Below are positions 9,005 through 31,752 of a stretch of 31,752 bases of DNA, piece by piece (position 1 is the first letter of the stretch; the number at the start of each line of letters is the position of its first letter). This stretch comes from a virus. The notes under the pieces were generated by a model. It had not been told where the DNA came from. It made no database searches and saw nothing but the letters and a program-made list of their open reading frames with translations. The DNA is taken from positions 1 through 31,752 of the IMG/VR virus record IMGVR_UViG_3300032214_001160; one strand, 5' to 3'. Made by a program: the position numbers and the translations under genes.

Positions 9005-9031
9005 TAGTCACCACTAAATAGTTATCTATTA

Positions 9032-9065
9032 GAGAGAGTGACCTACTTCGGTGGGTCACTCTCTC
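9032..9065. terminator. Bidirectional hairpin between convergent genes
   Basis: A perfect 12 bp stem (GAGAGAGTGACC with its complement) with a ten-base loop, flanked by 13-mers at 9020-9032 and 9087-9110. The latter is a 23 bp palindrome of two opposed 13-mers around one base. It separates the convergent genes ending at 9004 and 9113. Confidence 0.75.
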
Positions 9066-9112
9066 GCTGTATGTATGGACATAAATAGTTATCTATTAGT
9101 AATAGATAACGT

Positions 9113-17221: not shown

Positions 17222-17641
17222 ATGCCAACAGCATTATTACTAAAGACAACGGGCGAAGTAATCCCATTAGAACTAAACAACGAGAACGACCACATACTTA
17301 TTCGTGAAAGCGTTGGGGGCTGGTTTGACTGCGTGAGAAATCACGAAAGGCGCATTGTCGGTTATGTTCACGACGAAGGGCTACTCATTGGTTTGCCAGC
17401 AAATCCAGTTTCGTCGTTTCTCTTTGACCAAGTACTCGCAGGTGACTGCGTTATCGTTGGCTCTTTCAGCGAGGCTGGAGAGTATGACGGAGAGAGCCAC
17501 GAATTGCCTATTGCGTTTCGTTCGGGTCGTTTCGTAGAAATGGCTCGTGAAATGGGCGCAGATGTAGAACTCAACGAGAAACTAAACGCTCTGCTCGCTG
17601 GAGTAGATACAAGTTTCACAGTCAGCGAGTGGACTGAATAG
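17222..17641 (+). CDS. DUF3846-like protein
   Basis: A 139-residue protein with the order typical of DUF3846: an N-terminal strand pair, VGGWFDCVR, then GLLIGLPANPVSS and a VLAGDCVIVGSF strand. The family is common in phages and mobile elements and has no known function. AAAGGGGCAG ribosome binding site. It probably shares the upstream transcript or depends on the 13-mer region, as no conserved-spacer promoter is visible. Confidence 0.7.
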   Translation: MPTALLLKTTGEVIPLELNNENDHILIRESVGGWFDCVRNHERRIVGYVHDEGLLIGLPANPVSSFLFDQVLAGDCVIVGSFSEAGEYDGESHELPIAFRSGRFVEMAREMGADVELNEKLNALLAGVDTSFTVSEWTE

Positions 17642-17708
17642 TTATCTATTAGGAGAGTGGTGCGAAGTCCGTGCCACTCCCCAAATGGATTATCTCTAAT
17701 AGATAACT
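17640..17708. repeat. Inverted 13-mers flanking a hairpin
   Basis: AGTTATCTATTAG at 17640 and CTAATAGATAACT at 17696, with a GAGTGG.../CCACTC hairpin between them (about 17654-17681), form a long nested stem right after the gene. A further 13-mer lies at 17713. Confidence 0.7.
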
Positions 17709-17736
17709 TTCACTAATAGATAACTCCGAGCCATTC

Positions 17737-19282: not shown

Positions 19283-20011
19283 ATGCCAAACTGGTGCTAC
19301 CAAAGCCTAGAAGTACGAGGACCATCGCACGACCTTGATTCTTTCGTTGACGCTATGCAAGTGAGCGAACCCGACAAGACAGGTGCTATGCAGACAAGCG
19401 TAGAACTGAATCAGATGTGTCCAGTTGATGACAGGACTTTCGCTTACAAGACCATTACCAATGACGAGGGAGTGGAAACGCTTATCAAGACATACGCAAC
19501 GCTAAGCGAGAACGGCTTTGACGGATACGCTCACTGCGTTGAGATTTGGGGAACGAAGTGGGGTGCATGCCATATTCAGTGGAGTGGCACAAAGGGCAAG
19601 TATCCAGTACACATTTACTTTGAGAGTGCGTGGTCACCAGCGAGTGGTCTAATTCAGGCAATATCCACAAAGTTCCCAACGCTCATATTCGGTCTTTCAT
19701 ACACAGAGGAAGCCGACTTCTTTGCAGGGTACGAGATATTCCAAAATGGCAGGCAAGTTGACGAGTACAACGCTGGAGTGGTTACGAGTGAGGAAGCAGA
19801 AAAGTACCTTGCAGATTTCACGGCTAAATCGGAAGCCGACAACACCGAAGTACCTCAAGAGAATTGGGATACATATTACGAAATGATGTCCGAAGCAACA
19901 CAGGCTCGTGATGAGAAACTGGAAATGGCGTTCACTAAAGGCATGAACAACTATTCCAAGTCCTACTCGGCTAAACCCCCGAAAGCGAAGGTGATAACTG
20001 CACCTTTCTAA
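19283..20011 (+). CDS. Api92/YubB-like ferredoxin-fold protein (DUF1281-like)
   Basis: A 242-residue protein. The start MPNWCYQSLEVRGP is the hallmark of the Api92-like/YubB (DUF1281) family of phage and plasmid proteins, followed by WGTKWGACHIQW and FESAWSPASGLI, which also fit. Function unknown. The C-terminal 60 residues are charged and less conserved-looking. The stop codons lie in the 13-mer at 20008. AAGGAAC ribosome binding site. Confidence 0.8.
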   Translation: MPNWCYQSLEVRGPSHDLDSFVDAMQVSEPDKTGAMQTSVELNQMCPVDDRTFAYKTITNDEGVETLIKTYATLSENGFDGYAHCVEIWGTKWGACHIQWSGTKGKYPVHIYFESAWSPASGLIQAISTKFPTLIFGLSYTEEADFFAGYEIFQNGRQVDEYNAGVVTSEEAEKYLADFTAKSEADNTEVPQENWDTYYEMMSEATQARDEKLEMAFTKGMNNYSKSYSAKPPKAKVITAPF

Positions 20012-20060
20012 TAGATAACTCAATTACCCCCCAAACAAACAAACTAACAAAGGAATAAAT

Positions 20061-20282
20061 ATGAGTACCATGATTCAGAAAGAATCCAAGAAAATTGCAC
20101 TACGCCTACTCCGTGAGCGTCAAGAGCGAGAGTGGTCGCAACAGGAACTTGCCGATAAGGCAGGAATTGACAGAAAGACCGTGAATCGTATTGAGAACCT
20201 TCACTTCTCACCGAGCATGGAAACATTTCTGCGCCTATGTAATGCGATGAAGGTTCAGGCACACGAAGTATTAAAGGGCTAA
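20061..20282 (+). CDS. XRE-family helix-turn-helix regulator
   Basis: A 73-residue, single-domain Cro/CI-type protein: WSQQELADKAGIDRKTVNRIE forms the HTH, followed by the usual FSPSMETFLRLCNAMKV helices. No dimerisation domain. AAAGGAAT ribosome binding site. It is a candidate binder of the 13-mer or of the conserved promoter spacer, but nothing in the sequence proves this. Confidence 0.9.
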   Translation: MSTMIQKESKKIALRLLRERQEREWSQQELADKAGIDRKTVNRIENLHFSPSMETFLRLCNAMKVQAHEVLKG

Positions 20283-20293
20283 TTGGTGTCGTG

Positions 20294-20325
20294 GTGGTCG
20301 CTGTGCGAATCTGTACAGCGACCAC
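20294..20325 (+). terminator. Hairpin after the HTH gene
   Basis: A perfect 11 bp stem (GTGGTCGCTGT and complement) with a ten-base loop, followed by ACACAC and a variant 13-mer at 20331. Confidence 0.75.
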
Positions 20326-20342
20326 ACACACTAATAGATAAC

Positions 20343-20372
20343 CCGTCTAGTCTGTACCCTTCCTGATACGAT
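20343..20372 (+). promoter_or_regulatory. Promoter with conserved AGTCTGTACC spacer
   Basis: CCGTCT, an 18 bp spacer, and -10 TACGAT. The weak -35 suggests activator dependence. Confidence 0.75.
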
Positions 20373-20401
20373 GAAGTCACCACAACCAAAAGGAGTAAGC
20401 C

Positions 20402-21073
20402 ATGTCAGAAACCACTGATGAGTTCCAAAACCAAAAAATGTTCTCTGTATTAGAGGACGCTCTAGAACGAGCCATGTATGCAAAGACAGAGATGTGCAAA
20501 GAGGAGCCAATGTCCGACAACCCACCGATGTTGCTGGTCGGCTACAACAAAGAAAATGTAGAGGAAAAAACACGCCTAACCATTGGTGACGATGATGACA
20601 GCGAAATGCAAATTGGCATGGTTCCACTGATTCACAAGGACGATGTTCGTGAGTGCTTGGTGGACGCTATCGGCGCAATTCCAACCCAAAAGTTTGAGTT
20701 CTTGATTCTTGCAGTTGAGGGATACAAGGACGAGATGAGCGAGGACTTGCCCGAAGGTTGGTCAAGGGGTGACTTGGCAAAGGACTTTAAGGAGAATCCT
20801 TTCACAACTGTCAGAGAGGGCGTAATCGTCAGTGGCGTTGACTGGGAACACAAGTACGCAATAAACGGCGCATGCACATACTCGTACGATGACAAGGGCG
20901 TTCCACAGTTCGGAGAACCATCGTGGTCGCAAGTTGAGATTTCAGAGGAAACTGGCATGATGACATTTATCATGGCGAGTGCGTGTGAGTTTATGAAAAA
21001 GAAAATAATCACAGAATCATTTCACGCACTACTGGAAGCAACACCGAAAAAATCAAAGAAAGACAAGGAGTAA
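20402..21073 (+). CDS. Hypothetical protein
   Basis: A 223-residue acidic alpha/beta protein, AAGGAG ribosome binding site. Core strands include FEFLILAVEGY and MMTFIMASACEF; the C-terminus is Lys-rich. No catalytic motif recognised. Its AAGGAG-TAA-TAG end doubles as ribosome binding site and 13-mer for the next gene. Confidence 0.7.
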   Translation: MSETTDEFQNQKMFSVLEDALERAMYAKTEMCKEEPMSDNPPMLLVGYNKENVEEKTRLTIGDDDDSEMQIGMVPLIHKDDVRECLVDAIGAIPTQKFEFLILAVEGYKDEMSEDLPEGWSRGDLAKDFKENPFTTVREGVIVSGVDWEHKYAINGACTYSYDDKGVPQFGEPSWSQVEISEETGMMTFIMASACEFMKKKIITESFHALLEATPKKSKKDKE

Positions 21074-21082
21074 TAGATAACT

Positions 21083-21238
21083 ATGAGTGACGATGTAATC
21101 ACGCAAGTTACGACACTTGTTGACAAAGCAATAAACACAATATCGGGCAGAGAGTTGGTAGCGTCAGCCGAAATGGTTGACCTACTGCTTGATATCCGAC
21201 TACTACTACTAGACACAGAAGCAAAGGAAATAGCATGA
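21083..21238 (+). CDS. Short helical protein
   Basis: A 51-residue protein that begins immediately after the 13-mer (21070-21082), which separates its ATG from the AAGGAG site at the end of the upstream gene. Entirely helical and Leu-rich (MVDLLLDIRLLLLDTE). It overlaps the next gene by ATGA. Not recognised. Confidence 0.6.
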   Translation: MSDDVITQVTTLVDKAINTISGRELVASAEMVDLLLDIRLLLLDTEAKEIA

Positions 21239-21600
21239 CAACGCACCTTACGGAAAAAGAAAAAAATAACCCTTTCATGTCAGACTCGTTTGACATTGAG
21301 GACCTATCACTAATCACAGAAGCGATAGGGCTTTACATTGACAACAACTCTCGCCTGATGTACAACGCACCACAGATTATGGAAGTTGCAAAGATAGAGG
21401 ACGAGACAAAGCGCATGATGGCTCTATCACTACTGAAACCAAAGTACGAAGGTCAGCCACTATCCGATGAGGAAGTGGACCGACTACTACTAATAGATAA
21501 CTTGGTGCTTGACGCTATGGGCGTGAAGGAAGTGGAGAGCGAAGTTGACGGAGTTATCTATTCATTGGAAGAACACCTGAAGAAAAACGGAAAGGAGTGA
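21235..21600 (+). CDS. Hypothetical protein containing two in-frame 13-mers
   Basis: A 121-residue acidic helical protein. It contains both repeat orientations in frame: LLLIDNLVL (exact 13-mer at 21490) and GVIYSLEE (partial reverse copy near 21549). It is thus the clearest case of repeat sequence within a protein. No ribosome binding site besides the ATGA coupling. Not recognised. Confidence 0.65.
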   Translation: MTTHLTEKEKNNPFMSDSFDIEDLSLITEAIGLYIDNNSRLMYNAPQIMEVAKIEDETKRMMALSLLKPKYEGQPLSDEEVDRLLLIDNLVLDAMGVKEVESEVDGVIYSLEEHLKKNGKE

Positions 21601-21617
21601 GTGGCGACACTTCGCCG

Positions 21618-21720
21618 TTCGGAGCCCCGCTGCAGGTGCAAAAAAAATCAAAAAAAATCAAGAAAAAACCTCACATTACCGGCAGCGATACGTCACGTTC
21701 AGCCGGCTGCGGGATTATAG
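21618..21720 (+). repeat. Truncated cassette and AT-rich spacer
   Basis: A lone A arm (GGAGCCCCGC), followed by an A-rich tract with AAAAAAATC twice and a GCCGGCTGC hairpin part. No B or C arm. The region 21601-21873 has no convincing gene apart from a possible 38-codon frame from ATG 21749. Confidence 0.5.
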
Positions 21721-21736
21721 AAAAAAATCGTTTTAT

Positions 21737-21753
21737 TTGACGGTGGCGGATGA
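21737..21753 (+). repeat. 17-mer TTGACGGTGGCGGATGA
   Basis: Copy 3. Its last bases contain an ATG followed by ACTACTGC, as in copy 7 at 30512. Confidence 0.7.
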
Positions 21754-21801
21754 CTACTGCATGTTTTCATCTGATAGAAAATCAAATTTATAAACATGTA
21801 C

Positions 21802-21831
21802 CTTGCAAGTCTGATACTCGCTTATTATGCT
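21802..21831 (+). promoter_or_regulatory. Promoter, AGTCTGATAC spacer variant
   Basis: CTTGCA, an 18 bp spacer starting AGTCTGATAC, and -10 TATGCT. Confidence 0.7.
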
Positions 21832-21873
21832 GGGTGGCTATAGATAACTTTTATCCAAGAAAGTAGGATTACT

Positions 21874-22359
21874 ATGCAGGCAATAACAGAACAATTCGTT
21901 GACAGCGTCAATAAAGAATTATGGGATGAAGCGACCAAGAAGCATAAATCCAAGTTCTCCGTTCCAGCAGATGAGGTCAACTACATAGGGGAACTTATCC
22001 GTGGACTCCATGTACTGGCAGTGTGGCAACGAGAGGGTCAGGCTCGCCCACCCGAATCCTTCCTACGGTCTTACTCTGTGCAAGATTTCGTTATTCCTGA
22101 CCTACTCCAGAAATATCTGGGTAAATCTACGGTCTTGTCGCTCGACGAGGTGAAGCCAGAAAAACGAGAAAAGAAGTGGGGTGCTTTCATTGAGTGGGCA
22201 AAACTCCACGAATCAGAACAGTTCACCACCGAACAACTTGTTGAGACATGTGGTTTCTCCTATCCGACCACACTTGAGTATCTACGGATTTCTCCATACT
22301 TCAGGAAAATCAAGAAGGGTCTTTATGAAGTCATTGACCCCAAGACCCAAGATAAGTAA
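21874..22359 (+). CDS. Hypothetical protein with winged-helix-like C-terminus
   Basis: A 161-residue protein. Residues about 105-155 (KLHESEQFTTEQLVETCGFSYPTTLEYLR, ending FRKIKKGLYEVID) read like a winged helix with recognition helix and wing, so DNA binding is likely. The N-terminal half is helical and unassigned. It has its own promoter variant and lies just left of the AAA/VWA pair. Confidence 0.65.
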   Translation: MQAITEQFVDSVNKELWDEATKKHKSKFSVPADEVNYIGELIRGLHVLAVWQREGQARPPESFLRSYSVQDFVIPDLLQKYLGKSTVLSLDEVKPEKREKKWGAFIEWAKLHESEQFTTEQLVETCGFSYPTTLEYLRISPYFRKIKKGLYEVIDPKTQDK

Positions 22360-22405
22360 TTACTTCTAATAGATAACTTTTTCTCCTTTTTCTTCTTCTT
22401 TTAAG

Positions 22406-22560
22406 AAAGAGCCCCGGCCAACTCGCCGACACAGCGGGGCTCGGCTCGGGGAACGAGCGAGCAGGCACACGGGGGGCTTCCAATAACTCTCGCCAGTCAA
22501 CGGGGGGCTTCCGATAACTTCGCTGGCGCACACTTCGCTTCGCTTCGTGCTTGCCCCCAC
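22406..22560 (+). repeat. Cassette with two C strands and a D stem-loop
   Basis: Arms GAGCCCCGG and GCGGGGCTC, C strands at 22468-22487 (GATAA changed to AATAA) and 22500-22519, then D at 22524-22560 with a GCAC/GTGC inner stem. Three further 13-mers follow at 22576, 22599 and 22614. Together they fill the 369-base gap before the ATPase gene. Confidence 0.75.
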
Positions 22561-22658
22561 TTAAAGCCGATACCTCTAATAGATAACTCTGCCTACCTCT
22601 AATAGATAACTCTCTAATAGATAACTTGGATACATATATAAGTAGTCACAAATAAATG

Positions 22659-22688
22659 TTGGCTAGTCTGTACCCTTCCCGATACAGT
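22659..22688 (+). promoter_or_regulatory. Promoter with conserved AGTCTGTACC spacer
   Basis: TTGGCT, an 18 bp spacer, and -10 TACAGT; three 13-mers lie upstream. Confidence 0.8.
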
Positions 22689-22728
22689 GGGTGTTGCCAT
22701 ACCAACCACAACAAACAAGGAGAAAGAA

Positions 22729-23451
22729 ATGGCAGATACAGCAACCAAACTCCCCGAGTGCTGGCAAGCACTAGAGGACACACTCAACGCAGGAATTGAC
22801 CGTGTGATTCTTTACGGACCTTCGGGTATCGGAAAGACTTACGCAGGTCTAACGACTGGCGATGTTGAGGCAGGCGCATACCGACTGGTATGCACAGAGG
22901 ACATGACCAACATGGATGTTACTGGTGGATTCATGCCAAACGGCAAGGGTGGATTCCAGTGGCTCAATGGCTCGGCTCTAAAGGCTTGGCAGGGAAATGG
23001 GGTAAAGGGTGGTCGGCTCATCGTGGATGAAGTTGACAAGGCTTCGGGCGATGTGTTCGCAACACTTCTCTCCATGCTTGATTCCCCTGAATCGGCTTCG
23101 TATGAACACCCTGAAAATGGTCAAATTATCCGACCACTTGCAGGATTCTCTGCAATTATGACAACCAACATTGAGACAATGGGTGAACTCCCTACGGCTC
23201 TTGCTGACCGATTCCCAATTCGGATTCGTATTGACAAGCCACACCCACAGGCGTTGCTTCGTCTTTCGGCTGACTTGCGTGAATACGCAGTTCGCATGGC
23301 TGACGCTGGCGATGACAGAATCTCACTCCGAGCCTTCATCGCTCTTGACACACTTCGCAAGAGTGTCGGTATGGAACGAGCATGCCAGTTGACCTTCGGG
23401 CGCAGGGCAAAGCAGATTCTTGACGCTATTGCAGTGGACATGGTGAAATAA
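22729..23451 (+). CDS. MoxR/CobS-type AAA+ ATPase
   Basis: A 240-residue AAA+ ATPase. Walker A GPSGIGKT (30-37), Walker B LIVDE (97-101), sensor 1 MTTN (144-147) and an arginine-finger-like LADRF (158-162) are all present. The hairpin inserts before the sensor (GFMPNGKGGFQWLNG) are as in the MoxR/CobS branch. Such ATPases work with VWA proteins as chaperones or chelatases, and the next gene encodes one. ATG at 22729 after AAGGAG; the longer upstream start is not needed. Confidence 0.9.
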   Translation: MADTATKLPECWQALEDTLNAGIDRVILYGPSGIGKTYAGLTTGDVEAGAYRLVCTEDMTNMDVTGGFMPNGKGGFQWLNGSALKAWQGNGVKGGRLIVDEVDKASGDVFATLLSMLDSPESASYEHPENGQIIRPLAGFSAIMTTNIETMGELPTALADRFPIRIRIDKPHPQALLRLSADLREYAVRMADAGDDRISLRAFIALDTLRKSVGMERACQLTFGRRAKQILDAIAVDMVK

Positions 23452-23453
23452 CC

Positions 23454-25007
23454 ATGTCTCGTCACTCAATTCCAACCTCAACCACAGTGGGGAAAGCCTT
23501 CCCTACCTCAATAGATAACTCCGAAAGGGGGTCGGCTCAGGCAGAGCCGACCCTTCTAGGTCGTTCCGACATTGAGCATGGCAAGTGGCATGTAGAACAC
23601 TGCCGAGCAGTACGAGGCGAACCAAAGACCAATGTTGCCAAGCGTGTTATGTACGCACCTACCGATGATGATGAAAAGGGTCGGGTAATCAGGGCGCACG
23701 AAATGATGCACGCAAAGGTATCACCTGCAACCGATATGGATTCGTGGGTTGGTCGGCAAATCGCTTCTGAACAAGCACTAATCGTTACAGAGGAATTGCG
23801 TGTCAACTACCTATGCACCAAAGCAGGGTTTGACATGTCTCTACTATCTGACGGAAGTGAAACAGCAGACGGAGAACGCATGGGCGCAACCAAAGACTGG
23901 GCTGGTTGTGTTGCTTCGGCAGTGGCAACAGCAGGTACAGGTGGAAACAAATTGTTTCTCAATGGCGTTCGTAGGCACAACCGAGAGTGGGGAGAAATCC
24001 TTCTCAAAATCTCCAAGCGAGCAGTCAAAGAAATCAAAAAAGCCGATAAAGAACGGAATCTCGCAAGCACAGAAGCAGACGGGAATACTGGACTATCGCC
24101 TATTGGTTTCGCTCACACGGAAAGAATTGCCGAGTGGGTGGACAGGCTTGCCATGTTCCCACCACCACCTGAACCACCAAAAAAAGCAAAAAAATCAGGT
24201 GACTCCAAGAACGGCGAGGGTGAATCTCCAATAGATAACTCGTCCAGTGAAGTTGCCCACAGCAATAAAGGCACATCGGATAAGGGAAACAAGGAAGGAA
24301 ATCCCGACCTTGACAAAATCACTCCAACGGAAGCGACTAGAGGAATCCCACGCTGGTCAGAACTCCGTATTGAGCGTTGCCCAATGCCAAAATACAGCAA
24401 GGGTCATATCGGTAAGAAGCGAATTGCAACGAACATGGGTCGCAGACCACGCCGTATGCACCGTCTATTGACCGACCCCTCAATGCGAGTGTTTGACCGT
24501 ACCGTTCGTGGTAGTGGTGGCATGGTAATTCTTGACGCAAGTGGGTCAATGTCTTTCACCGAGAATCAAATTGCTGAAATCTTGGAACATGCCCCTGGGG
24601 CTACTATCGCCATGTACACCGACAAAGGTAACGAGGGAACGAACATGTTCATCGTTGCTGACAAGGGTCGCATGGTTGAGCAACTACCTGACTATGGATA
24701 TGGCAACGGAGTTGACTTCCCTGCCATTGAGTGGGGCGTGAAAAACAAAGCCCAAAAGAACTCGCCGTTAGTGTGGGTTACAGATGGTGGAGTGTGTGGA
24801 CACAATGACGGGTTTCACGGAGTACTGGCTATGCAGTGTCTCACCTACGCTCGCAAGAACAAGTACATAATTGTTCCCCACGCAGACGAAGCCATAAAGC
24901 AACTGAAACAACTATCAAATGGTGGCAAGGCTCGTAGCGTCTATCCAAACATGTTCAGAGAAGTGTGGCGAAATGCCAACGGTAGTGAACTTCCCTACTC
25001 TGAATAG
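23454..25007 (+). CDS. Large VWA protein with HExxH motif, partner of the ATPase
   Basis: A 517-residue protein. The N-terminal domain holds a zinc-protease-like HEMMH (82-86) with TEELR downstream (112-116); then a helical region, a Pro/Lys/Ser-rich linker (about 236-290), and a C-terminal VWA domain with the MIDAS motif DASGSM (361-366) and TDGG. This resembles metallopeptidase-VWA (CobT/DUF2201-like) proteins paired with MoxR ATPases. In-frame 13-mers give SIDNS (19-23) and PIDNS (259-263). A hairpin lies at 23534-23556 within the N-terminal coding part, so the real start may be downstream, before GKWHVEH. Confidence 0.8.
   Translation: MSRHSIPTSTTVGKAFPTSIDNSERGSAQAEPTLLGRSDIEHGKWHVEHCRAVRGEPKTNVAKRVMYAPTDDDEKGRVIRAHEMMHAKVSPATDMDSWVGRQIASEQALIVTEELRVNYLCTKAGFDMSLLSDGSETADGERMGATKDWAGCVASAVATAGTGGNKLFLNGVRRHNREWGEILLKISKRAVKEIKKADKERNLASTEADGNTGLSPIGFAHTERIAEWVDRLAMFPPPPEPPKKAKKSGDSKNGEGESPIDNSSSEVAHSNKGTSDKGNKEGNPDLDKITPTEATRGIPRWSELRIERCPMPKYSKGHIGKKRIATNMGRRPRRMHRLLTDPSMRVFDRTVRGSGGMVILDASGSMSFTENQIAEILEHAPGATIAMYTDKGNEGTNMFIVADKGRMVEQLPDYGYGNGVDFPAIEWGVKNKAQKNSPLVWVTDGGVCGHNDGFHGVLAMQCLTYARKNKYIIVPHADEAIKQLKQLSNGGKARSVYPNMFREVWRNANGSELPYSE
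23534..23556 (+). terminator. Hairpin inside the start of the VWA reading frame
   Basis: GGTCGGCTC pairs with GAGCCGACC around a five-base loop, followed by CTTCTAGG and preceded by a 13-mer (about 23511-23523). This is the same order as between genes elsewhere, yet the open frame runs through it. It may attenuate expression of the VWA gene. Confidence 0.55.
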
Positions 25008-25017
25008 ATAACTTCTC

Positions 25018-25099
25018 GCCTACCTAGTTACCCCCATTACTAGGTAGGCAGAGTAAGTACCTACCCACCCGTTCGGTCTTTCTCCTTTCGGGTGGGTAG
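25018..25099 (+). terminator. Tandem hairpins after the ATPase-VWA operon
   Basis: Two perfect 11 bp stems: GCCTACCTAGT with its complement (25018-25049) and CTACCCACCCG with its complement (25061-25099, loop T-rich). Both are made of CCTA/CTACC-like units related to the repeat at 21-66. Confidence 0.8.
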
Positions 25100-25137
25100 T
25101 GTGCTATCCCCTAATAGATAACTAGAAAAGGAAAAAA

Positions 25138-25353
25138 ATGAGCGACTACGACACACTTGATGAAGCACTAGAGGACTTGCAAGACAGTCTGCAACATGCG
25201 ATTCATGTACTCCAAGCGATTCTTGACGATGTTGAGGAAAATGGATACGACCAAGAGAAAGCAAAACTGGATTACGAAAACATAGTATGCAACGAAGGCA
25301 TTGACTTTATGAGTGCATTAGAATCGTTTGCATTATTCTCTCCAACAAAATAG
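25138..25353 (+). CDS. Small acidic helical protein
   Basis: A 71-residue protein, strongly helical and acidic (LDEALEDLQDSLQHAIHVLQAILDD as two heptad runs). The 13-mer at 25111 directly precedes the AAAGG ribosome binding site. Not recognised. Confidence 0.65.
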   Translation: MSDYDTLDEALEDLQDSLQHAIHVLQAILDDVEENGYDQEKAKLDYENIVCNEGIDFMSALESFALFSPTK

Positions 25354-25396
25354 TTCCAGTAAATACTAATAGATAACTCTAAGAAAAGAGAAAAAA

Positions 25397-25687
25397 ATGA
25401 AAAAGAAAAAGAAGCAAAGCAAATTGCGAAAGCAAATAAACGAACACTTAGAGTCAATGGGCGAGAACGCATTACTCATGGACGGGTTTGATGAAGCACT
25501 AATCGGATTCTCTCAACGAATAAACGAACCTTTATTGGCAGTTTATTCTTGGGAAAAAATGATGGATGTCTGCATTGAGCGTGACGGCATGGATGATGAG
25601 GAAGCAGAGGAATACATTAGTTACAACTGCATAGGCGCATGGGTAGGCGAGCAGACACCGATTATTGTTATGCCAGTTCTTTACTAA
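25397..25687 (+). CDS. Conserved hypothetical phage protein
   Basis: A 96-residue protein with a Lys-rich start. The segment FDEALIGF...AVYSWEKMMDVCIERDGMDDEEAEEYI and the end NCIGAWVGEQTPII match a pattern I know from many phage and bacterial hypotheticals (GF-x-A, GM-x-x-EEA-x-E-(Y/F), G-A-x-V-G-E-x-TP). Function unknown. The stop lies in the 13-mer at 25684. Confidence 0.75.
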   Translation: MKKKKKQSKLRKQINEHLESMGENALLMDGFDEALIGFSQRINEPLLAVYSWEKMMDVCIERDGMDDEEAEEYISYNCIGAWVGEQTPIIVMPVLY

Positions 25688-25712
25688 TAGATAACTAACG
25701 AAAGCGAAAACT

Positions 25713-26009
25713 ATGAACTATGAAGTTATCTATTGTGTACTATTCGTGACCCTATTGGGAATCGCATTACACACTCACACACTCACGCTCACACTCGTAC
25801 AGTTGATAAGACAGCGTGTACCAGTTGTATCTCTAATAGATAACTCTCTAACGCTCTACGCTCTCCCTAGAGGACGCTACGACAGAACCAATGGCTCGCT
25901 CTATCGTGCGCACAAGGACGAACAGGGCAGACACAGCGAGAGCCTGTGGGAACGACAACGCCCACGAAACGACTTCGGCACTGCGCAACACTCTGGTCAC
26001 GCCAAGTAA
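25713..26009 (+). CDS. Possible small membrane protein
   Basis: A 98-residue frame with a hydrophobic N-terminus (VIYCVLFVTLLGIALH), a Thr/Leu repeat (HTHTLTLTLV) and a polar C-terminal half. It contains VIY and LIDNS from a partial reverse and an exact 13-mer. No ribosome binding site. It overlaps antisense with the possible gene at 25848-26174; at most one may be real. A terminator follows at 26053. Confidence 0.45.
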   Translation: MNYEVIYCVLFVTLLGIALHTHTLTLTLVQLIRQRVPVVSLIDNSLTLYALPRGRYDRTNGSLYRAHKDEQGRHSESLWERQRPRNDFGTAQHSGHAK

Positions 26010-26174
26010 AGAAAGCGAATAAATCACAGAAATTCCCACGAAGCCGAACAGAGCCCCGCCGAAAACGGATTTGCGCGGGGCCTTTTCTTGAGAGCTAGCA
26101 ACCATTGAAGAATATTTAGAAAATTGATTTAATTCTCTTCTTGATGATTTACCGGACGGGGGAGGGGGTCTCAT
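25848..26174 (-). CDS. Possible leftward gene antisense to the previous one
   Basis: A 108-residue frame with an excellent AAGGAG site five bases before the ATG, 58 bases after the stop of the HTH regulator on the same strand, so it could be the second gene of that operon. The N-terminus is basic and polar, the C-terminal part hydrophobic. Against it: the hydrophobic end is antisense to a polar protein, and a rightward terminator lies within it. A shorter product or remnant is possible. Confidence 0.3.
   Translation of the reverse strand: MRPPPPSGKSSRRELNQFSKYSSMVASSQEKAPRKSVFGGALFGFVGISVIYSLSLLGVTRVLRSAEVVSWALSFPQALAVSALFVLVRTIERAIGSVVASSRESVER
26053..26088 (+). terminator. Rho-independent terminator
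   Basis: GCCCCGC/GCGGGGC stem with a 15-base loop, followed by CTTTTCTT. It is the last relative of the A-B hairpin to the right, here with a true T-tract and no C strand. Confidence 0.8.
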
Positions 26175-26192
26175 AAAAACTCCTTATTTAAT

Positions 26193-26209
26193 ACGACGGT
26201 GGTGGATGA
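26193..26209 (+). repeat. 17-mer ACGACGGTGGTGGATGA
   Basis: Copy 4, with two mismatches at the 5' end. It lies between the regulator's stop and the possible leftward gene. Confidence 0.65.
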
Positions 26210-26232
26210 CCTTGGCGGACTGGGTTGCTTAA

Positions 26233-26607
26233 TTAGATATCTTCATTTTTTCTAATTATTTGATGGACCCGCTGCCGGCTCAAATCAAATACATCTGCGA
26301 TTTCCCTCAGGGACTTACCGGCAGCACGCATTTGATGAATTTCTGAATTTCTACTTATGTCTGTGGCAGGACCAGGCTTAAATGGACCCCACTGCCAATT
26401 AGGAATTTCTTGAATTTTCTTTACTCGGTCTTCTGACAATTGGTTTTTACGATAACGCTGTCTGATGTAACCAACCCATGCACCTAAAGAAATATGATTT
26501 TCTTGAATTTTTTCAACATGCGCAGCGGGAATCTGGGAATTGCCTTCTCTCTCAATGTATTGGGAGAGAGCTTGTGTGTATGTGATAAATCGTGTGTTGT
26601 TGTCCAT
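26233..26607 (-). CDS. Helicase-associated (HA) domain plus HTH regulator
   Basis: A 124-residue protein. Residues about 6-65 match the helicase-associated HA domain (ISLGAWVGYIRQRYRKNQLSE...W.W), a DNA-binding module; residues about 80-120 are a sigma-region-4-like HTH (LREIADVFDLSRQRVHQII). I use the ATG at 26607: a -10-like TATTGT ends eight bases before it and a LexA box lies just upstream. The longer frame back to 26691 reads through the promoter. Probably an SOS-controlled regulator. Confidence 0.75.
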   Translation of the reverse strand: MDNNTRFITYTQALSQYIEREGNSQIPAAHVEKIQENHISLGAWVGYIRQRYRKNQLSEDRVKKIQEIPNWQWGPFKPGPATDISRNSEIHQMRAAGKSLREIADVFDLSRQRVHQIIRKNEDI

Positions 26608-26622
26608 GCCGATAACAATAGA

Positions 26623-26636
26623 CGAACAAGTGTTCG
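26623..26636. promoter_or_regulatory. LexA/SOS box in a divergent promoter region
   Basis: CGAACAAGTGTTCG, a perfect CGAACNNNNGTTCG. It lies in the spacer of the leftward regulator promoter and three bases before the -35 of the rightward promoter, so one repressor could control both. Confidence 0.65.
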
Positions 26637-26639
26637 CCC

Positions 26640-26667
26640 TTGACACTTCCCCCATAAGAGGTACAAA
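26640..26667 (+). promoter_or_regulatory. Rightward promoter
   Basis: Consensus -35 TTGACA, a 16 bp spacer, and TACAAA followed by AT-rich sequence; it is adjacent to the LexA box. It lacks the AGTCTGTACC spacer. It likely starts the 26783-30302 operon. Confidence 0.6.
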
Positions 26668-26782
26668 TATATTTATTTTATAGGTTGACATTTTAAAGCT
26701 CAGTAGATAGAGTTATTGAGGACCCAGATGACTATCTGTCATTTGGCGTTTATTGGCGGTTTCTTACCGTGGAGGAAGACCT

Positions 26783-27028
26783 ATGACTAGAAGCGTTATG
26801 GCAAGTATCAGCTTTGAGTTCAGTGAGGAAAATCTCGCCGAATTTAGAGACGTGGGTAAAGAGGACATCTCGGACCAAGACCTTATTGATTGGGCACGAG
26901 ATACCTTTATAGATGACATCCACAATTTGGTTAAATTTAACCAAGTCCTCTCAGCCGTCCAGACGAGTCTCTGGGTAAACACTGGTTTCCCTCATGAGCA
27001 CCCGGTTGTGGACGTAGAAAAAAACTAA
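26783..27028 (+). CDS. Hypothetical protein
   Basis: An 81-residue protein, ATG after GGAGGAAGACCT. Helical and acidic (FSEENLAEFRDVGKEDISDQDLIDW). First gene of the right-hand operon. Not recognised. Confidence 0.65.
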   Translation: MTRSVMASISFEFSEENLAEFRDVGKEDISDQDLIDWARDTFIDDIHNLVKFNQVLSAVQTSLWVNTGFPHEHPVVDVEKN

Positions 27029-27043
27029 CTTTTTTAAAGATTT

Positions 27044-27093
27044 CTCGCTCCTAGCCAGGCGTCTGTCGGGGACAACTGGCTGGGAGTGAGATT
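27044..27093 (+). other. Strong leader hairpin before 27112
   Basis: CTCGCTCC-AGCCAG and CTGGCT-GGGAGTGAG arms form a 14-15 bp stem with one bulge and a 17-base loop. No T-tract, so it is more likely a processing or translation-control element than a terminator. The next ribosome binding site (GGGAG) lies a few bases later. Confidence 0.6.
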
Positions 27094-27111
27094 CAAGGAC
27101 TGGGAGCTCAA

Positions 27112-27321
27112 ATGCAAGAATACCTATTAATTGAAAAAGAAGAGAAAACCAAACTTGTTCTGGCAATGCGTCTTGCCGAATCAGCAAAAATCACATACGG
27201 TGCCGCCGCTGCACTCGAGGTGATTTCTGAAAAAATCGTAAATTTGATGCCGGCCCGGAACGTTATTGAATTAATAAAAGAAATAGAAAATAACCACACG
27301 AGCGCCATCTCAGAAAGCTGA
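27112..27321 (+). CDS. Small helical protein
   Basis: A 69-residue helical protein (LVLAMRLAESAKITYGAAAALEVISEKI), GGGAG ribosome binding site. No cysteines or membrane segment. Not recognised. Confidence 0.65.
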   Translation: MQEYLLIEKEEKTKLVLAMRLAESAKITYGAAAALEVISEKIVNLMPARNVIELIKEIENNHTSAISES

Positions 27322-27334
27322 GTAAATTACCAAC

Positions 27335-27790
27335 ATGGAAGAAAAAAACAATAAATACCAGTCAGTCCGCGGCAGCGATGCATTTGAAGAAATGCTAAAA
27401 AAAGAAAAGATGAAGCCAGAGCTCATAGAAGAAGTAATGGAAAAAATCGCAGAAACCTCCGAAGAGGTCCATAACATCATCTTCGTTTTTACCGATAATG
27501 ATGTTGCGGTCACAGGCGTGCATGTCCCTAGGTCAGCGCTTAATGGCGAAGACGGTCCAGTCATATTTAAGAATTCTAAAGAAAACTCTTTGACTGCAGC
27601 CTTTTCACGTGAGTACATTGAAGAGAGAATTCAAAGGGCCGATGATGTGGGAGAGAGAGCGGGGCTCGGCAGCGTTATCGCCGACCAGGTCTGGATTTCC
27701 GAGTTGGAAAAAATAGTTGAAGAGGTTAGAATCAAAATCGAAACGACCCCTCCCAGGAGCTGGGACGAACTACTAGAAGAGGGTGAATAA
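27335..27790 (+). CDS. Hypothetical protein
   Basis: A 151-residue acidic protein with helical ends and a central strand region (VHNIIFVFTDNDVAVTGVHVPRSAL). It shares one base with the Nmad1 gene, so the two are probably made together. Not recognised. Confidence 0.65.
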   Translation: MEEKNNKYQSVRGSDAFEEMLKKEKMKPELIEEVMEKIAETSEEVHNIIFVFTDNDVAVTGVHVPRSALNGEDGPVIFKNSKENSLTAAFSREYIEERIQRADDVGERAGLGSVIADQVWISELEKIVEEVRIKIETTPPRSWDELLEEGE

Positions 27791-28482
27791 TGTTGACGGT
27801 GGTGGATGAGCTCGGCAATGACGGACCACGTTGGTGGCAAGAGGCTGCCAAGGTTGTAGTTTGTGAAATTTTTAATGATTACTCGCTCGAGAAGATTATC
27901 CACCATCTGGATTGCCTCGAAGAGGAAAGTCAAGAAATGCGAAAAAATGAAGAAAAAGTTATCTATGCGGCCGGCCAAGTATCTCGAGAATCTCAGAAAT
28001 ATTTGTCGTCCCATTTCGACGGGATGCTGAATAACTTTAAATTCTTTACTTCTGATGGCGCTTACTGGGTTGATGAATGGCGTCAGCTCGGATGTCTAGC
28101 TGCAGCCGCGGGAATCAAAAATGGCAATTTTTTAGCAATATCTGAAGACCTGGTAGCCGGCAGCGCGCATCCAGAAAATCATAAAAAACCAAGAAACTCC
28201 GCGTCAGCTGAATTCGATAGTTGGATGGTGCGCGACTCAATCCTCGAGACACTAATCAAAAAACAAAAAGATTACGGTCATGAGAACATCTCAAGGTTTG
28301 GGCGGTATGGACTATTAGTCCGCACGCACGACAAGCTAGCTCGATTAATAAACCTACAGAAAACAAAAAATACCCCAGAGAACGAATCGATAACAGATAC
28401 GTATACTGATATCGTCGGCTACTCCGCAATCGGCATGATGCTCGAGCGCGGATGGTTCGGATTACCACTAATCGATTACTAG
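27790..28482 (+). CDS. Protein with C-terminal Nmad1 (DUF1599) domain
   Basis: A 230-residue protein. The C-terminal 80 residues match DUF1599/nucleotide modification-associated domain 1: ETLIKKQKDYGHENISRFG, RTHDKLARLINL, then ESITDTYTDIVGYSAIG. The family is linked to modified-nucleotide pathways in phages; the exact role is unclear. The N-terminal 145 residues are unassigned. The ATG is followed at once by a 17-mer read as LTVVDE. The C-terminus LPLIDY comes from a degenerate 13-mer. Confidence 0.75.
   Translation: MLTVVDELGNDGPRWWQEAAKVVVCEIFNDYSLEKIIHHLDCLEEESQEMRKNEEKVIYAAGQVSRESQKYLSSHFDGMLNNFKFFTSDGAYWVDEWRQLGCLAAAAGIKNGNFLAISEDLVAGSAHPENHKKPRNSASAEFDSWMVRDSILETLIKKQKDYGHENISRFGRYGLLVRTHDKLARLINLQKTKNTPENESITDTYTDIVGYSAIGMMLERGWFGLPLIDY
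27793..27809 (+). repeat. 17-mer TTGACGGTGGTGGATGA at a gene start
   Basis: Copy 5, exact, forming codons 2-7 of the Nmad1 gene. Confidence 0.75.
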
Positions 28483-28526
28483 ATAAATCTAAGAAACAAA
28501 TAACTACTAGACAAGCCTCCGTTTAT

Positions 28527-28543
28527 ATGACGGTGGTGGATGA
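28527..28543 (+). repeat. 17-mer ATGACGGTGGTGGATGA before the membrane protein gene
   Basis: Copy 6. Its GGTGGTGG could serve as a poor ribosome binding site for the ATG at 28540 that it contains. Read in the frame of copies 5 and 8, it opens a 29-codon peptide instead. Confidence 0.7.
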
Positions 28544-29457
28544 TGGAGAAAGTAATGAAAGCATTAAAGGCGGCGCTTCTATTTGCCGTAACTGGAGTTG
28601 CCTTATCTTTTGCTAGTCAAGCAAAAGCGAATAATGACTGCCACCCTATTATGTTGGCTTTTTGGTCTGCCAATAGTCCCTACCAGCCTGGGATGGCTCC
28701 ACTGTTTGACGAAAAGTGTAATTTCGTAAAGTACATAGCAGTAAGTGGAAATGTTTCTTTTGTTGCACCTATGCCGAATGCTGCAACTACAACAATTCCA
28801 GTAACAACATTGGCGCCCAAAAACAAAATTGATACACCTAAACTCAAATCAAAAGACACGCGCCCTGCCCCAGTGATAGGGGCCCCAATAGCTCAAGTAA
28901 TACAGCCAGTTATACAAAAAACAATAACCACTACAACAACATCAATACCAACAATAACCAAAAACCAAAAGGAGACTACTGTGTTTGGCCTAAAAGAAAC
29001 AGAATTTTTTATAATCTTAGTTTTATTTATCCTTGCATCTATCTACGTCATTACTGCACAAATGAATCGTTCGAAAATGGCCATAATGCGTTTTGAACTA
29101 GAACGCAAGGAAAAAGAATTCAACTTTGAATCAAAATCATACGAGTTGCGAGAACTCGCAAAAGCAAAGATAAACAATGAACATGAAGTTGCTTTAAAAA
29201 CAATCGAAACAAAGAATGTAGTTAGTCAGCTTGAATTCACAGAACAGCAGTTGCAAAACGAACGAAGCCATAACCTCGAGCAACAGCGAATTAATTCCAG
29301 CAGCGCCGACAAGATGCTCAGCTACATCATGCCAATCGTTGGTGGTCGTGACCAGCATGAGCTTCGCATGGCTGAAATAGCAGCAGGCAGTGGGCTCGGC
29401 TCCATATTGCCACACACAATCACGAACGCAACAGTGAAACTACATACCAAGGACTAG
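28540..29457 (+). CDS. Secreted-type single-pass membrane protein with coiled coil
   Basis: A 305-residue protein: signal peptide at 1-30 (ALLFAVTGVALSFASQAKA, cleavage after AKA), an outside domain with three cysteines or so and a Thr/Pro-rich linker (TTTTTSIPTITK), a membrane segment at about 156-173 (FFIILVLFILASIYVI), then a cytoplasmic coiled coil at about 177-255. The last 50 residues are less regular. Not a known family. It would connect the cell surface with a cytoplasmic partner; the small genes after it are candidates. Confidence 0.75.
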   Translation: MMEKVMKALKAALLFAVTGVALSFASQAKANNDCHPIMLAFWSANSPYQPGMAPLFDEKCNFVKYIAVSGNVSFVAPMPNAATTTIPVTTLAPKNKIDTPKLKSKDTRPAPVIGAPIAQVIQPVIQKTITTTTTSIPTITKNQKETTVFGLKETEFFIILVLFILASIYVITAQMNRSKMAIMRFELERKEKEFNFESKSYELRELAKAKINNEHEVALKTIETKNVVSQLEFTEQQLQNERSHNLEQQRINSSSADKMLSYIMPIVGGRDQHELRMAEIAAGSGLGSILPHTITNATVKLHTKD

Positions 29458-29502
29458 TTTCATGGTTAGTACACAGAATTCCAATCGACCAAGGAGAACA
29501 TT

Positions 29503-29670
29503 ATGGGCATTGTATTAGGCACAATAATTTATAAAGCTGGTGCGCGCCGCGCTAATAAAAAACGAGATAAGCAAGAAAGAACTCGAAGCGAGAAGAGTGC
29601 CAATAAGGCAATGCATGAGTACTACAATGGCGACACGTCAGCCATGGAGGAGTATTATGCAAATCGATAA
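29503..29670 (+). CDS. Short basic protein
   Basis: A 55-residue protein, AAGGAG ribosome binding site. It begins with a hydrophobic patch (MGIVLGTIIYKAGARRA), then a very basic stretch (KKRDKQERTRSEKSANK). It overlaps the next gene by 14 bases. Too short for a confident family. Confidence 0.65.
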   Translation: MGIVLGTIIYKAGARRANKKRDKQERTRSEKSANKAMHEYYNGDTSAMEEYYANR

Positions 29671-29911
29671 CCCTGAAGAAGAAGACGCCCTCGAGCAGCG
29701 CGCAGAATTCGAAAGAAATTCGATTCTGGACGACCAGGACCAGATGCAATACAAAATGGAGAATTCTGTAGAGAACAAGAAACCAGACTACCTTGGGGAC
29801 TTGGTCACCAAGATTGGCGCATCCGGTCTTGCGGCAAACAAAATTATGGAAAATTTAGGAATTGCTTACAATTGCATTCAGCTCCCTGAGGAGGAAGACA
29901 ATGAGTTTTAA
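29657..29911 (+). CDS. Small acidic protein
   Basis: An 84-residue protein, GGAGG ribosome binding site just before the ATG. Acidic and helical, charge-complementary to the upstream basic protein. It overlaps both neighbours (14 and 11 bases), so stoichiometric expression is likely. Not recognised. Confidence 0.65.
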   Translation: MQIDNPEEEDALEQRAEFERNSILDDQDQMQYKMENSVENKKPDYLGDLVTKIGASGLAANKIMENLGIAYNCIQLPEEEDNEF

Positions 29912-30302
29912 ACTTCTTTTTTTACATATTTTGTTCCTGGCCATCTGGGCCCTCGACTCAAGGCAGCTTGATAAGGCGCGCATCTGGCGGCGGTACCAAA
30001 GAAACGTTAACAATCAGGAGCGCGCGCACCGCCAGGAGATGTCGCGCATCAACTCTACGTATGTAGACCTGACACACAACGTGAGGCTGCGGCCGGCACC
30101 AGCTGCAGAAAAAGAAAATATTTATGACGTCCAAAACGAGCTCTGGCCGGATATGGCAAAAATGAAAGAAAACAGAAAAAAATGGGCGTACGATGCCGGC
30201 CCAAAGTTCGGCTACACCAAGGCTAAGCGCGACGCGTTCTACACGCAGATGCGCATCAGCCGCTGGGGCTGGGGCTCAAGCGAGGCCGGCAAGTTCAAGT
30301 AA
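29901..30302 (+). CDS. Small basic membrane-associated protein
   Basis: A 133-residue protein, GAGGAGG ribosome binding site. A hydrophobic helix at 3-18 (FKLLFLHILFLAIWAL) is followed by a long basic region and a conserved-looking end (GPKFGYTKAKRDAFYTQMR, then SRWGWGSS). The last gene of this operon; a terminator follows. Confidence 0.65.
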   Translation: MSFKLLFLHILFLAIWALDSRQLDKARIWRRYQRNVNNQERAHRQEMSRINSTYVDLTHNVRLRPAPAAEKENIYDVQNELWPDMAKMKENRKKWAYDAGPKFGYTKAKRDAFYTQMRISRWGWGSSEAGKFK

Positions 30303-30308
30303 AAGGTA

Positions 30309-30357
30309 GCCCGGGGGAATCAACACCACCTACCACAACGGAGACTCAACCCCGGGC
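30309..30357 (+). terminator. Terminator after the right-hand operon
   Basis: GCCCGGGG and CCCCGGGC arms around a 33-base loop, followed by CTTGCTTCTT. Confidence 0.7.
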
Positions 30358-30511
30358 CTTGCTTCTTCGGCGATTGGGGAACTGTGCCAAAGGAAGCCCC
30401 GCTACCATAGCACGTGCTTTTATTATTTAATGCAAATATTTGTTTTTATTTAATAGCCGGCTCGAGCTCCCGGGGAAAATAAAAAATTCCCAAAAAATAC
30501 CCTCTAACCGG

Positions 30512-30541
30512 TTGACGGTGGTGGATGACTACTGCTAGGGT
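30512..30541 (+). promoter_or_regulatory. 17-mer copy 7, acting as a promoter
   Basis: TTGACGGTGGTGGATGA starts here; TTGACG then sits 18 bases from TAGGGT (30536-30541), the same geometry as the other promoters. This is the only copy of the 17-mer with a good -10. Confidence 0.5.
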
Positions 30542-30576
30542 GACCACCCATCTAGCCCAATAGGTCTAGGTATCAA

Positions 30577-30588
30577 TGTGACGTCACA
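30577..30588. promoter_or_regulatory. Perfect 12 bp palindrome
   Basis: TGTGACGTCACA, about 36 bases after the -10 at 30536. A likely site for a dimeric regulator. Confidence 0.5.
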
Positions 30589-30689
30589 ATCGCTGAAATC
30601 TACACGCCCAAAAACACTTTCCAAAAACGGAAAGTCTGATGGACGACGCCCGCGATAAGTTGGTACAAAATCAAAGGTTTTCCCCCAGA

Positions 30690-30717
30690 CCCCCTTTCCA
30701 AAGGGGGCTTCTTCTTT
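30690..30717 (+). terminator. Rho-independent-like terminator
   Basis: CCCCCTTT and AAAGGGGG with a two-base loop, then CTTCTTCTTT. It would limit read-through into the replication genes, as attenuation or insulation. Confidence 0.75.
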
Positions 30718-30842
30718 AACCTACTACGTTCTTTCTTTACGTAGTTATTAATGTACTAGTTAACGAAATTAATCCTTTCGTAAGGTTGAAAAAACAAAAA
30801 CCGTTTTTACCATTTTTGGTACTTACTTTTTTACGTTCACTA

Positions 30843-30859
30843 TTGACGGTGGCGGAAGA
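30843..30859 (+). repeat. 17-mer TTGACGGTGGCGGAAGA at a gene start
   Basis: Copy 8. It is read in the same frame as copy 5 (LTVAEE) and could itself be the start of the replication gene. Confidence 0.65.
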
Positions 30860-30878
30860 GCCCGATAGGATTCACCCC

Positions 30879-31247
30879 ATGGGGAAGCGCGGTCAATCCG
30901 AACACAACAAGTCAAAGACAGCTGCAGCTAAAGAAATACCAAAAGCACAAAAGCTAGAAATATTTGACTTCTGGAAACTAACGTTCAACAAGTCTCGAGT
31001 GAGCATGGACGTCAACAGAGAGAACGCAATAGGTTGGGCTATCTACACCTACGGCCTGGAAGCATGTAGGCATGCAATCCTGGGTTGCGCGGCATCAGCC
31101 TTCCATATGGGACAGAACAAAGCCGGCAAGACATACAACGGGATAGACTTAATCTTTAGAGACGCTGAGCATGTCGAGATGTTCTTAGAGCGCTATGACA
31201 AGTCGACAGATACAAACGCGCGAGATGAATGGATTAATAATGGATAA
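30879..31247 (+). CDS. Replisome organizer-like phage protein
   Basis: A 122-residue protein (TTG at 30843 is an alternative start, giving 12 more residues, MTVAEEPDRIHP). After a Lys-rich segment, the domain FDFWKLTFNKSRVSMDVNRE...AIGWAI, then CRHAILGCAASAFHMGQNKAGK and LIFRDAEHVEMFL, matches the C-terminal domain of many phage replication initiators. It lacks the usual N-terminal DNA-binding domain. It overlaps the helicase-loader gene by eight bases. Confidence 0.65.
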   Translation: MGKRGQSEHNKSKTAAAKEIPKAQKLEIFDFWKLTFNKSRVSMDVNRENAIGWAIYTYGLEACRHAILGCAASAFHMGQNKAGKTYNGIDLIFRDAEHVEMFLERYDKSTDTNARDEWINNG

Positions 31248-31722
31248 AGCTGAATTAGCTAACCTAGTTGACCAGGTCTTCGCCACGTACAACCAAGAGC
31301 TCCCATTAGATGACAAGAGCCGCGTACAGCTCATCTATAAGTCCTGGTACGACTTACTCCATGACCTGAGCTACGCAGACTGCAAGGAAGCCTTCCTCAT
31401 ATTGGCTACTACGTCCACCTTCATGCCCAAGGCAGGGGAGATAAGACGTTCCACAATTAATAGGCATACAAAAATAGGGGAAACAGATGAACCCATTATT
31501 GCTTGGGGTAAATTCCAACGGATAATGGAAGATGCCAACGCAGGTGTGATGAACCAGCAGGAGCTACAGGAGGCCCTCATACTCACTGTGCGCAAGCTGG
31601 GTGCTGCCGGCGCAGGGATGCATACCAATGGAGACAGGGAACACTTCATCCGGGTATATGAAAAAACAGTGATAGAAATAGAAGGAGAGAAATATAAAGT
31701 CCCTCTCCGAATTGAGGAATAA
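31240..31722 (+). CDS. G39P-like replicative helicase loader
   Basis: A 160-residue protein. The ATG at 31240 overlaps the previous stop. The N-terminal 75 residues (VQLIYKSWYDLLHDLSYADCKEAFLILATTSTFMPKAGEIR) follow the pattern of the helicase loader/inhibitor family typified by G39P, which loads the replicative helicase on the initiator complex. The C-terminal half is helical with an Ala/Gly-rich turn (LGAAGAGMHTNGD). Its pairing with a replisome organizer supports the role. Confidence 0.7.
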   Translation: MDKAELANLVDQVFATYNQELPLDDKSRVQLIYKSWYDLLHDLSYADCKEAFLILATTSTFMPKAGEIRRSTINRHTKIGETDEPIIAWGKFQRIMEDANAGVMNQQELQEALILTVRKLGAAGAGMHTNGDREHFIRVYEKTVIEIEGEKYKVPLRIEE

Positions 31723-31752
31723 ATGTTTGGCTTTTCTATTTGGCAATTATTA
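31723..31752 (+). CDS. Start of a gene cut by the window end
   Basis: An ATG immediately after the loader's stop, preceded by GAGGAATAA, opens a frame of at least ten codons (MFGFSIWQLL). Given the neighbours it may be the next replication gene, such as a helicase, but too little is visible. Confidence 0.4.
   Translation, partial: MFGFSIWQLL

Follow-up and report, generated by a model that had tools for sequence, protein, structure and literature searches.

The window, which is the whole 31,752-base virus record IMGVR_UViG_3300032214_001160 of a freshwater phage, carries a two-gene pair that was assigned, with a probability of about one half, to an AAA+ remodelling machine in which a MoxR/CobS-type ring ATPase works with a VWA co-chaperone carrying a zincin-like HExxH domain, possibly in DNA metabolism. 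The ATPase gene (22729..23451, 240 aa) has AAGGAG preceding its ATG, and the gene for the HExxH and VWA partner (23454..25007, 517 aa) begins two bases past the ATPase stop codon; both are on the + strand, as are all gene, motif and repeat coordinates given below except those of the HA-domain gene. Both ORFs are intact at the coordinates given by the earlier note, and its description of a complete pair was borne out, since the AAA motifs and the HEMMH, TEELR and DASGSM motifs were all located. Two scans of IMG/VR gave 87 viral loci, or 88 with that of the window. In 88/88 loci, a set into which certain contigs entered twice with different flanks, the VWA gene was always the direct 3' neighbour of the ATPase gene, on the same strand; contigs carrying the viral pair reach 170 kb. 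The AAA_5 domain motifs, together with an adjacent MIDAS protein in 88/88 loci, likewise sustain the identification of the pair as a MoxR-type ATPase plus a VWA protein.

The ATPase matched the Pfam family AAA_5 (E 1.4e-11), the ATPase family PHROG_16448 (3e-32) and the phage CobS family PHROG_249 (2e-13). Across 74 ATPases from phages and chromosomes, the key motif residues are kept in 95% or more. They comprise a Walker A motif GPSGIGKT (residues 30–37, 22816..22839) in which G30, G35, K36 and T37 are kept at that level, a Walker B motif LIVDE (residues 97–101, 23017..23031) with conserved D100 and E101, and an arginine finger, R161 of a DRF motif (23209..23211), present in 74/74; sensor-1 in the window ATPase is N147.

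The partner protein had no match in scans with Pfam, NCBIfam and PADLOC, and matched only the unannotated family PHROG_33218 (2e-42). Its architecture, an HExxH N-domain followed by a VWA-like C-domain, resembles that of the DUF2201 putative metallopeptidase-VWA proteins (PF13203/PF09967), although the window family does not match either of those models. A VWA relative was not found by tblastn of phage records, a near match to window DNA 20001–31752 was not found among the same kind of record, and a profile search of PDB sequences with the family profiles gave nothing relevant. ATPases of Microbacterium phages do match the AAA gene, but they are followed by other genes (rIIA/rIIB-like in Cece) and not by the HExxH-VWA partner. 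The partner alignment was made from 33 non-redundant viral proteins of less than 85% mutual identity, the relatives being 43–80% identical to the window protein. H82, E83 and H86 of the HEMMH motif (residues 82–86, 23697..23711), a putative metal site, and E113, E114, R116 and N118 are invariant across this set, far above chance. The MIDAS motif DASGSM (residues 361–366, 24534..24551) and the TDG motif (residues 443–445, 24780..24788), which forms the second part of the VWA metal site, are invariant at D361, S363, S365, M366, T443, D444 and G445, and the D, S and S of the MIDAS are retained in chromosomal proteins. In a set of 55 phage and chromosomal N-domains with identities down to 33%, the two histidines and the glutamate of HExxH, E114, R116 and N118 were invariant and E113 nearly so. 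The latter residues belong to the motif EELRVN (residues 113–118, 23790..23807; TEELRVN spans residues 112–118), which probably provides a third metal ligand from the next helix.

The N-domain (residues 30–240, 23541..24173) was modelled alone with AF2 using phage and chromosomal sequences, and gave a confident model with a pLDDT of 93 and a pTM of 0.90; the model of the full-length partner had a pLDDT of 79. The HExxH lies on a single predicted helix within residues 74–89 and E113/E114 on the neighbouring helix within residues 106–123, so the unclustered histidines named by the earlier note as evidence against a metallopeptidase-like domain were not seen. A Foldseek comparison of the N-domain with the PDB placed selecase in the top three positions, with abylysin and jannalysin lower, at probabilities of 0.2–0.66, E-values above 1 and about 50 aligned residues. 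The model thus suggests a zincin-like N-domain with an HExxH helix and a conserved acidic third-ligand candidate on the following helix, and the metallopeptidase-like label fits it, with minigluzincins as the best, though non-significant, structural matches. With the full model the top PDB matches were generic VWA domains only, while BFVD gave a match to a viral protein of 451 aa (5e-21) and a weaker one to a VWA protein of a haloarchaeal tailed virus.

The conservation of these residues bears on whether the N-domain acts on its client by proteolysis. Known MoxR-VWA machines such as NorQD remodel their clients or insert metal without proteolysis (PMC13036017), and the MIDAS and AAA motifs of the window family are conserved equally to the HExxH. 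The pair could accordingly be a non-proteolytic co-chaperone that works like RavA-ViaA or NorQ-NorD, its HExxH binding a structural metal or recognising the client. This was considered unlikely, as E83, at the general-base position, and the acidic residue 114 are kept in all members, which is more than a structural two-histidine metal site needs. For the remodelling machine proposed here, the VWA/MIDAS domain would dock the client, the ring ATPase would pull or twist it, as in NorQD, where the ring exerts force, and the putative metal-binding N-domain would clip or hold it; protein cleavage by the N-domain is inferred.

Relatives of about 30% identity were found by a scan of GTDB genomes in MAGs of the Acidimicrobiales, certain of them on contigs of 100–280 kb, and these chromosomal proteins retain the N-terminal motifs and the MIDAS. 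The VWA protein was present in 75 of the 150 genomes sampled from one Acidimicrobiales family. In a tree the chromosomal Acidimicrobiales sequences formed one well-supported group, with the phage group separate at a weak support of 65%. LexA was found in 144/150 genomes of the sampled family, and in 19 carriers lexA was divergent from the pair and adjacent to it. The interval separating lexA from the ATPase gene holds a perfect GAACN4GTTC box with flanking C and G in 19/19 of these (two boxes in one of them). At the lexA loci without the pair, lexA faced LysM-nrdR directly across LexA boxes in 20/20 examined, and an insertion of the pair between lexA and LysM-nrdR is therefore the simplest account of the arrangement in the 19 carriers. 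The genes downstream of the chromosomal pair in many carriers encode LysM, NrdR, PIG-L, DinB and YkuD proteins.

Where lexA adjoins the pair, control of the pair by LexA is possible, though the box may serve lexA alone. Such control does not appear to be general, because in carriers with a non-adjacent lexA no LexA box was found immediately before the ATPase gene, the two boxes of these loci preceding the LysM gene. For the same reason a role of the pair as a general SOS gene is unsupported, and a role as a replacement for LexA is ruled out by the 144/150 genomes that have LexA. The synteny with lexA could also reflect hitch-hiking after a single ancient insertion. A second actinobacterial arrangement was observed on two MAG contigs, where a separate VWA protein, an ATPase, an HExxH-VWA protein and a protein of about 400 aa without a Pfam match are encoded in a row.

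This kind of pair has already been described in viruses, as 'CobST' by Liu et al. (2021; PMC8651126), who treated the peptidase label as a mistake, and as a MoxR-vWA-metallopeptidase system of jumbo phages by Iyer et al. (2021; PMC7824862). The window family is a divergent variant within the described class. Three loci of T4-like cyanophages, annotated as 'porphyrin biosynthesis' and 'peptidase', encode a CobS/CobT pair that shares with the window a MoxR/CobS-type ATPase adjoining an HExxH-VWA protein; the cyanophage 'peptidase' has an N-terminal HEVGHA...TEDxRIE (E-D-x-R-I-E) and a C-terminal VWA domain with DWSGSM (DxSGSM). Their gene order is reversed, however, the partner has 708–741 aa compared to 517 in the window, it belongs to PHROG 459 rather than 33218, and full-length similarity is barely detectable. 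By hhalign, the N-domain alone showed homology to its counterpart in the cyanophage 'peptidase'/CobT proteins (E 5e-6, with mismatched-domain controls at about 0.5), and a protein encoded on a Klebsiella plasmid, which does match the Pfam CobT models, carries HEVAH...VEDTFIE. Taken together, the cyanophage homology and this plasmid motif indicate that the wider class has long included the HExxH module. Plasmid records, including IncC plasmids and ones of about 110 kb, encode CobT-like relatives in more than 1,700 cases and CobS-like ATPase relatives in more than 2,300.

These likenesses, the ATPase match to the phage CobS family and the published assignment would speak for a reading in which the pair supplies the ATPase subunit and the VWA subunit to an aerobic cobaltochelatase, whose CobST pair it resembles in its AAA+/VWA pairing and, distantly through the cyanophage and plasmid CobT proteins, in its N-domain. 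The viral proteins would then hijack the CobN of the host to raise cobalamin, and the HExxH would be a non-catalytic relic misannotated as a peptidase. The strict conservation of the HExxH glutamate counts against a relic, and neither the window proteins nor the 33 members matched the CobT models PF06213/PF11775 (CobT/CobT_C) or the NCBIfam CobS/CobT models. A CobST-type cobaltochelatase needs CobN. CobN/ChlH/BchH proteins were detected in 0/75 chromosomal carriers, 0/5 other carrier genomes and 0/13 phage contigs of 118–170 kb. In the sampled family PF02514 (CobN/ChlH/BchH) was above the cut-off in 18/150 genomes and the VWA protein was present in 75/150, with an overlap of zero (Fisher p 2e-6 for the exclusion, relatedness ignored); the genomes are largely MAGs and possibly incomplete, and the weight of the result rests on the 75/75 carriers without CobN. 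Since the chelatase depends on a subunit found in none of these carriers, the data are strongly against the chromosomal orthologues acting as a cobaltochelatase. The same absence lowers the likelihood of chelatase function for the phage pair, for which the cobaltochelatase reading was considered very doubtful. The earlier note had stated that related host pairs insert metals or remodel complexes: the first of these functions does not hold for the chromosomal relatives, given CobN in 0/75 carriers, while remodelling is retained in the reading preferred here.

The second published reading is that of Iyer et al. (2021; PMC7824862), in which the pair of jumbo phages is a virion assembly chaperone-protease that acts on structural proteins during maturation, folding and processing them. 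The group 2.2 jumbo phages of that study encode a MoxR AAA+ ATPase and a vWA protein with an N-terminal metallopeptidase domain, a domain combination and pairing that match the window by the description in the paper rather than by sequence, and there is a MoxR-vWA precedent in archaeal virus tail assembly (PMC7824862). Against an assembly role, the single-copy chromosomal orthologue in half of the sampled Acidimicrobiales family, at the lexA/nrdR region, has no virion to assemble, and a structural gene was not recognised among the scanned window ORFs; the role was considered rather unlikely for the window pair. Neither published reading is a clean fit to the window family, as CobST lacks a CobN and assembly does not account for a chromosomal copy without a virion.

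Under the remodelling reading, the client would come from DNA replication, repair or nucleotide metabolism and not from cobalamin synthesis or the virion only. This is suggested by the contexts in which such pairs occur: the chromosomal pair is near lexA, nrdR and dinB, the cyanophage relatives are located between gp46 and gp45/gp44, a plasmid CobS-like ATPase is beside ssb-bet-exo, and in Deinococcus deserti an independent MoxR and VWA pair belongs to an operon that carries a radiation-response motif (PMC2669436). The phage gene contexts are confounded because early genes cluster anyway. A more specific form of this reading would make the pair a counterpart, in bacteria and phages, of Wss1/Spartan with Cdc48, in which an AAA+-driven minigluzincin clears DNA of protein roadblocks or of replication proteins; it would have become a fixed element of the Acidimicrobiales SOS locus, and phages would carry it to protect replication or to redirect it. 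The Wss1/Spartan proteases (PMC4559962) share with the window type an AAA+ partner, a minigluzincin-like fold as suggested by the best PDB matches, and the DNA-damage context of the chromosomal pairs. The likeness is one of analogy, of which sequence homology is not a part, and this form was considered quite improbable.

The region upstream of the pair contains three exact copies of the 13-mer CTAATAGATAACT within 22576..22626 (starts 22576, 22599 and 22614), and a further exact copy is located at 22366. Copies of CTAATAGATAACT with two or fewer mismatches number 64 in the window, compared to 0.8 expected. The earlier note had regarded this as the richest control region of the window, which is correct for spacing, with three 13-mers in 51 bp, whereas other triple clusters occur at 1754–1832, 9020–9111 and 17640–17725. 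The promoter it had placed here was not recovered, as a search of the + strand upstream of the pair found no sigma-70-like promoter. Six related phages have their own 13-mer variants with a common core TAGATAA[CG]T, and a two-copy direct repeat CGGGGGGCTTCC[AG]ATAACT was seen by eye at 22471–22520, upstream of the pair. The pattern of the 13-mer suggests a stoperator-like or promoter-like, group-specific element.

Several small genes occur repeatedly near the viral pair, two of them more often than the others. The gene directly upstream of the pair (21874..22359) encodes a 161-aa protein whose family was present in 28/35 viral loci, typically immediately 5' of the ATPase. It had no Pfam match and did not turn up in the conserved gene neighbourhood of the chromosomal pair; it may be a third component or a regulator. 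Downstream of the pair in 23/35 viral loci is a gene for an HA-domain and HTH protein, which in the window lies on the - strand (26233..26691; Pfam HA 3e-12) and contains a LexA-type box at 26623–26636. The window has three perfect LexA-type boxes CGAACN4GTTCG (15574, 16605 and 26623) against 0.01 expected, and the window and related loci together, 35 viral loci and 414 kb, have 26 against 0.4 expected. In 16 of the 23 viral loci that have the HA/HTH gene, a box was located close to its start, which suggests that this phage regulator is under the control of host LexA. Because the nearest chromosomal relatives are from Acidimicrobiales and the LexA-type boxes of the window are like theirs, a phage of actinobacteria is plausible.

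What is new for this class of proteins is the chromosomal context, with an orthologue in 75/150 genomes, CobN in 0/75 carriers and an insertion between lexA and LysM-nrdR in 19, together with the confident model of the N-domain. Viral CobST pairs have been reported as vitamin-B12 (cobalamin) genes. The orthologous pair occurs in genomes without detected CobN, so the cobalamin label should not be the default for the branch to which the window belongs. The HExxH motif that was once called a misannotation ranks among the most strictly conserved features of this branch, and the copies at the lexA/nrdR locus offer a cellular setting for testing a class of proteins whose function in phages two published readings dispute.
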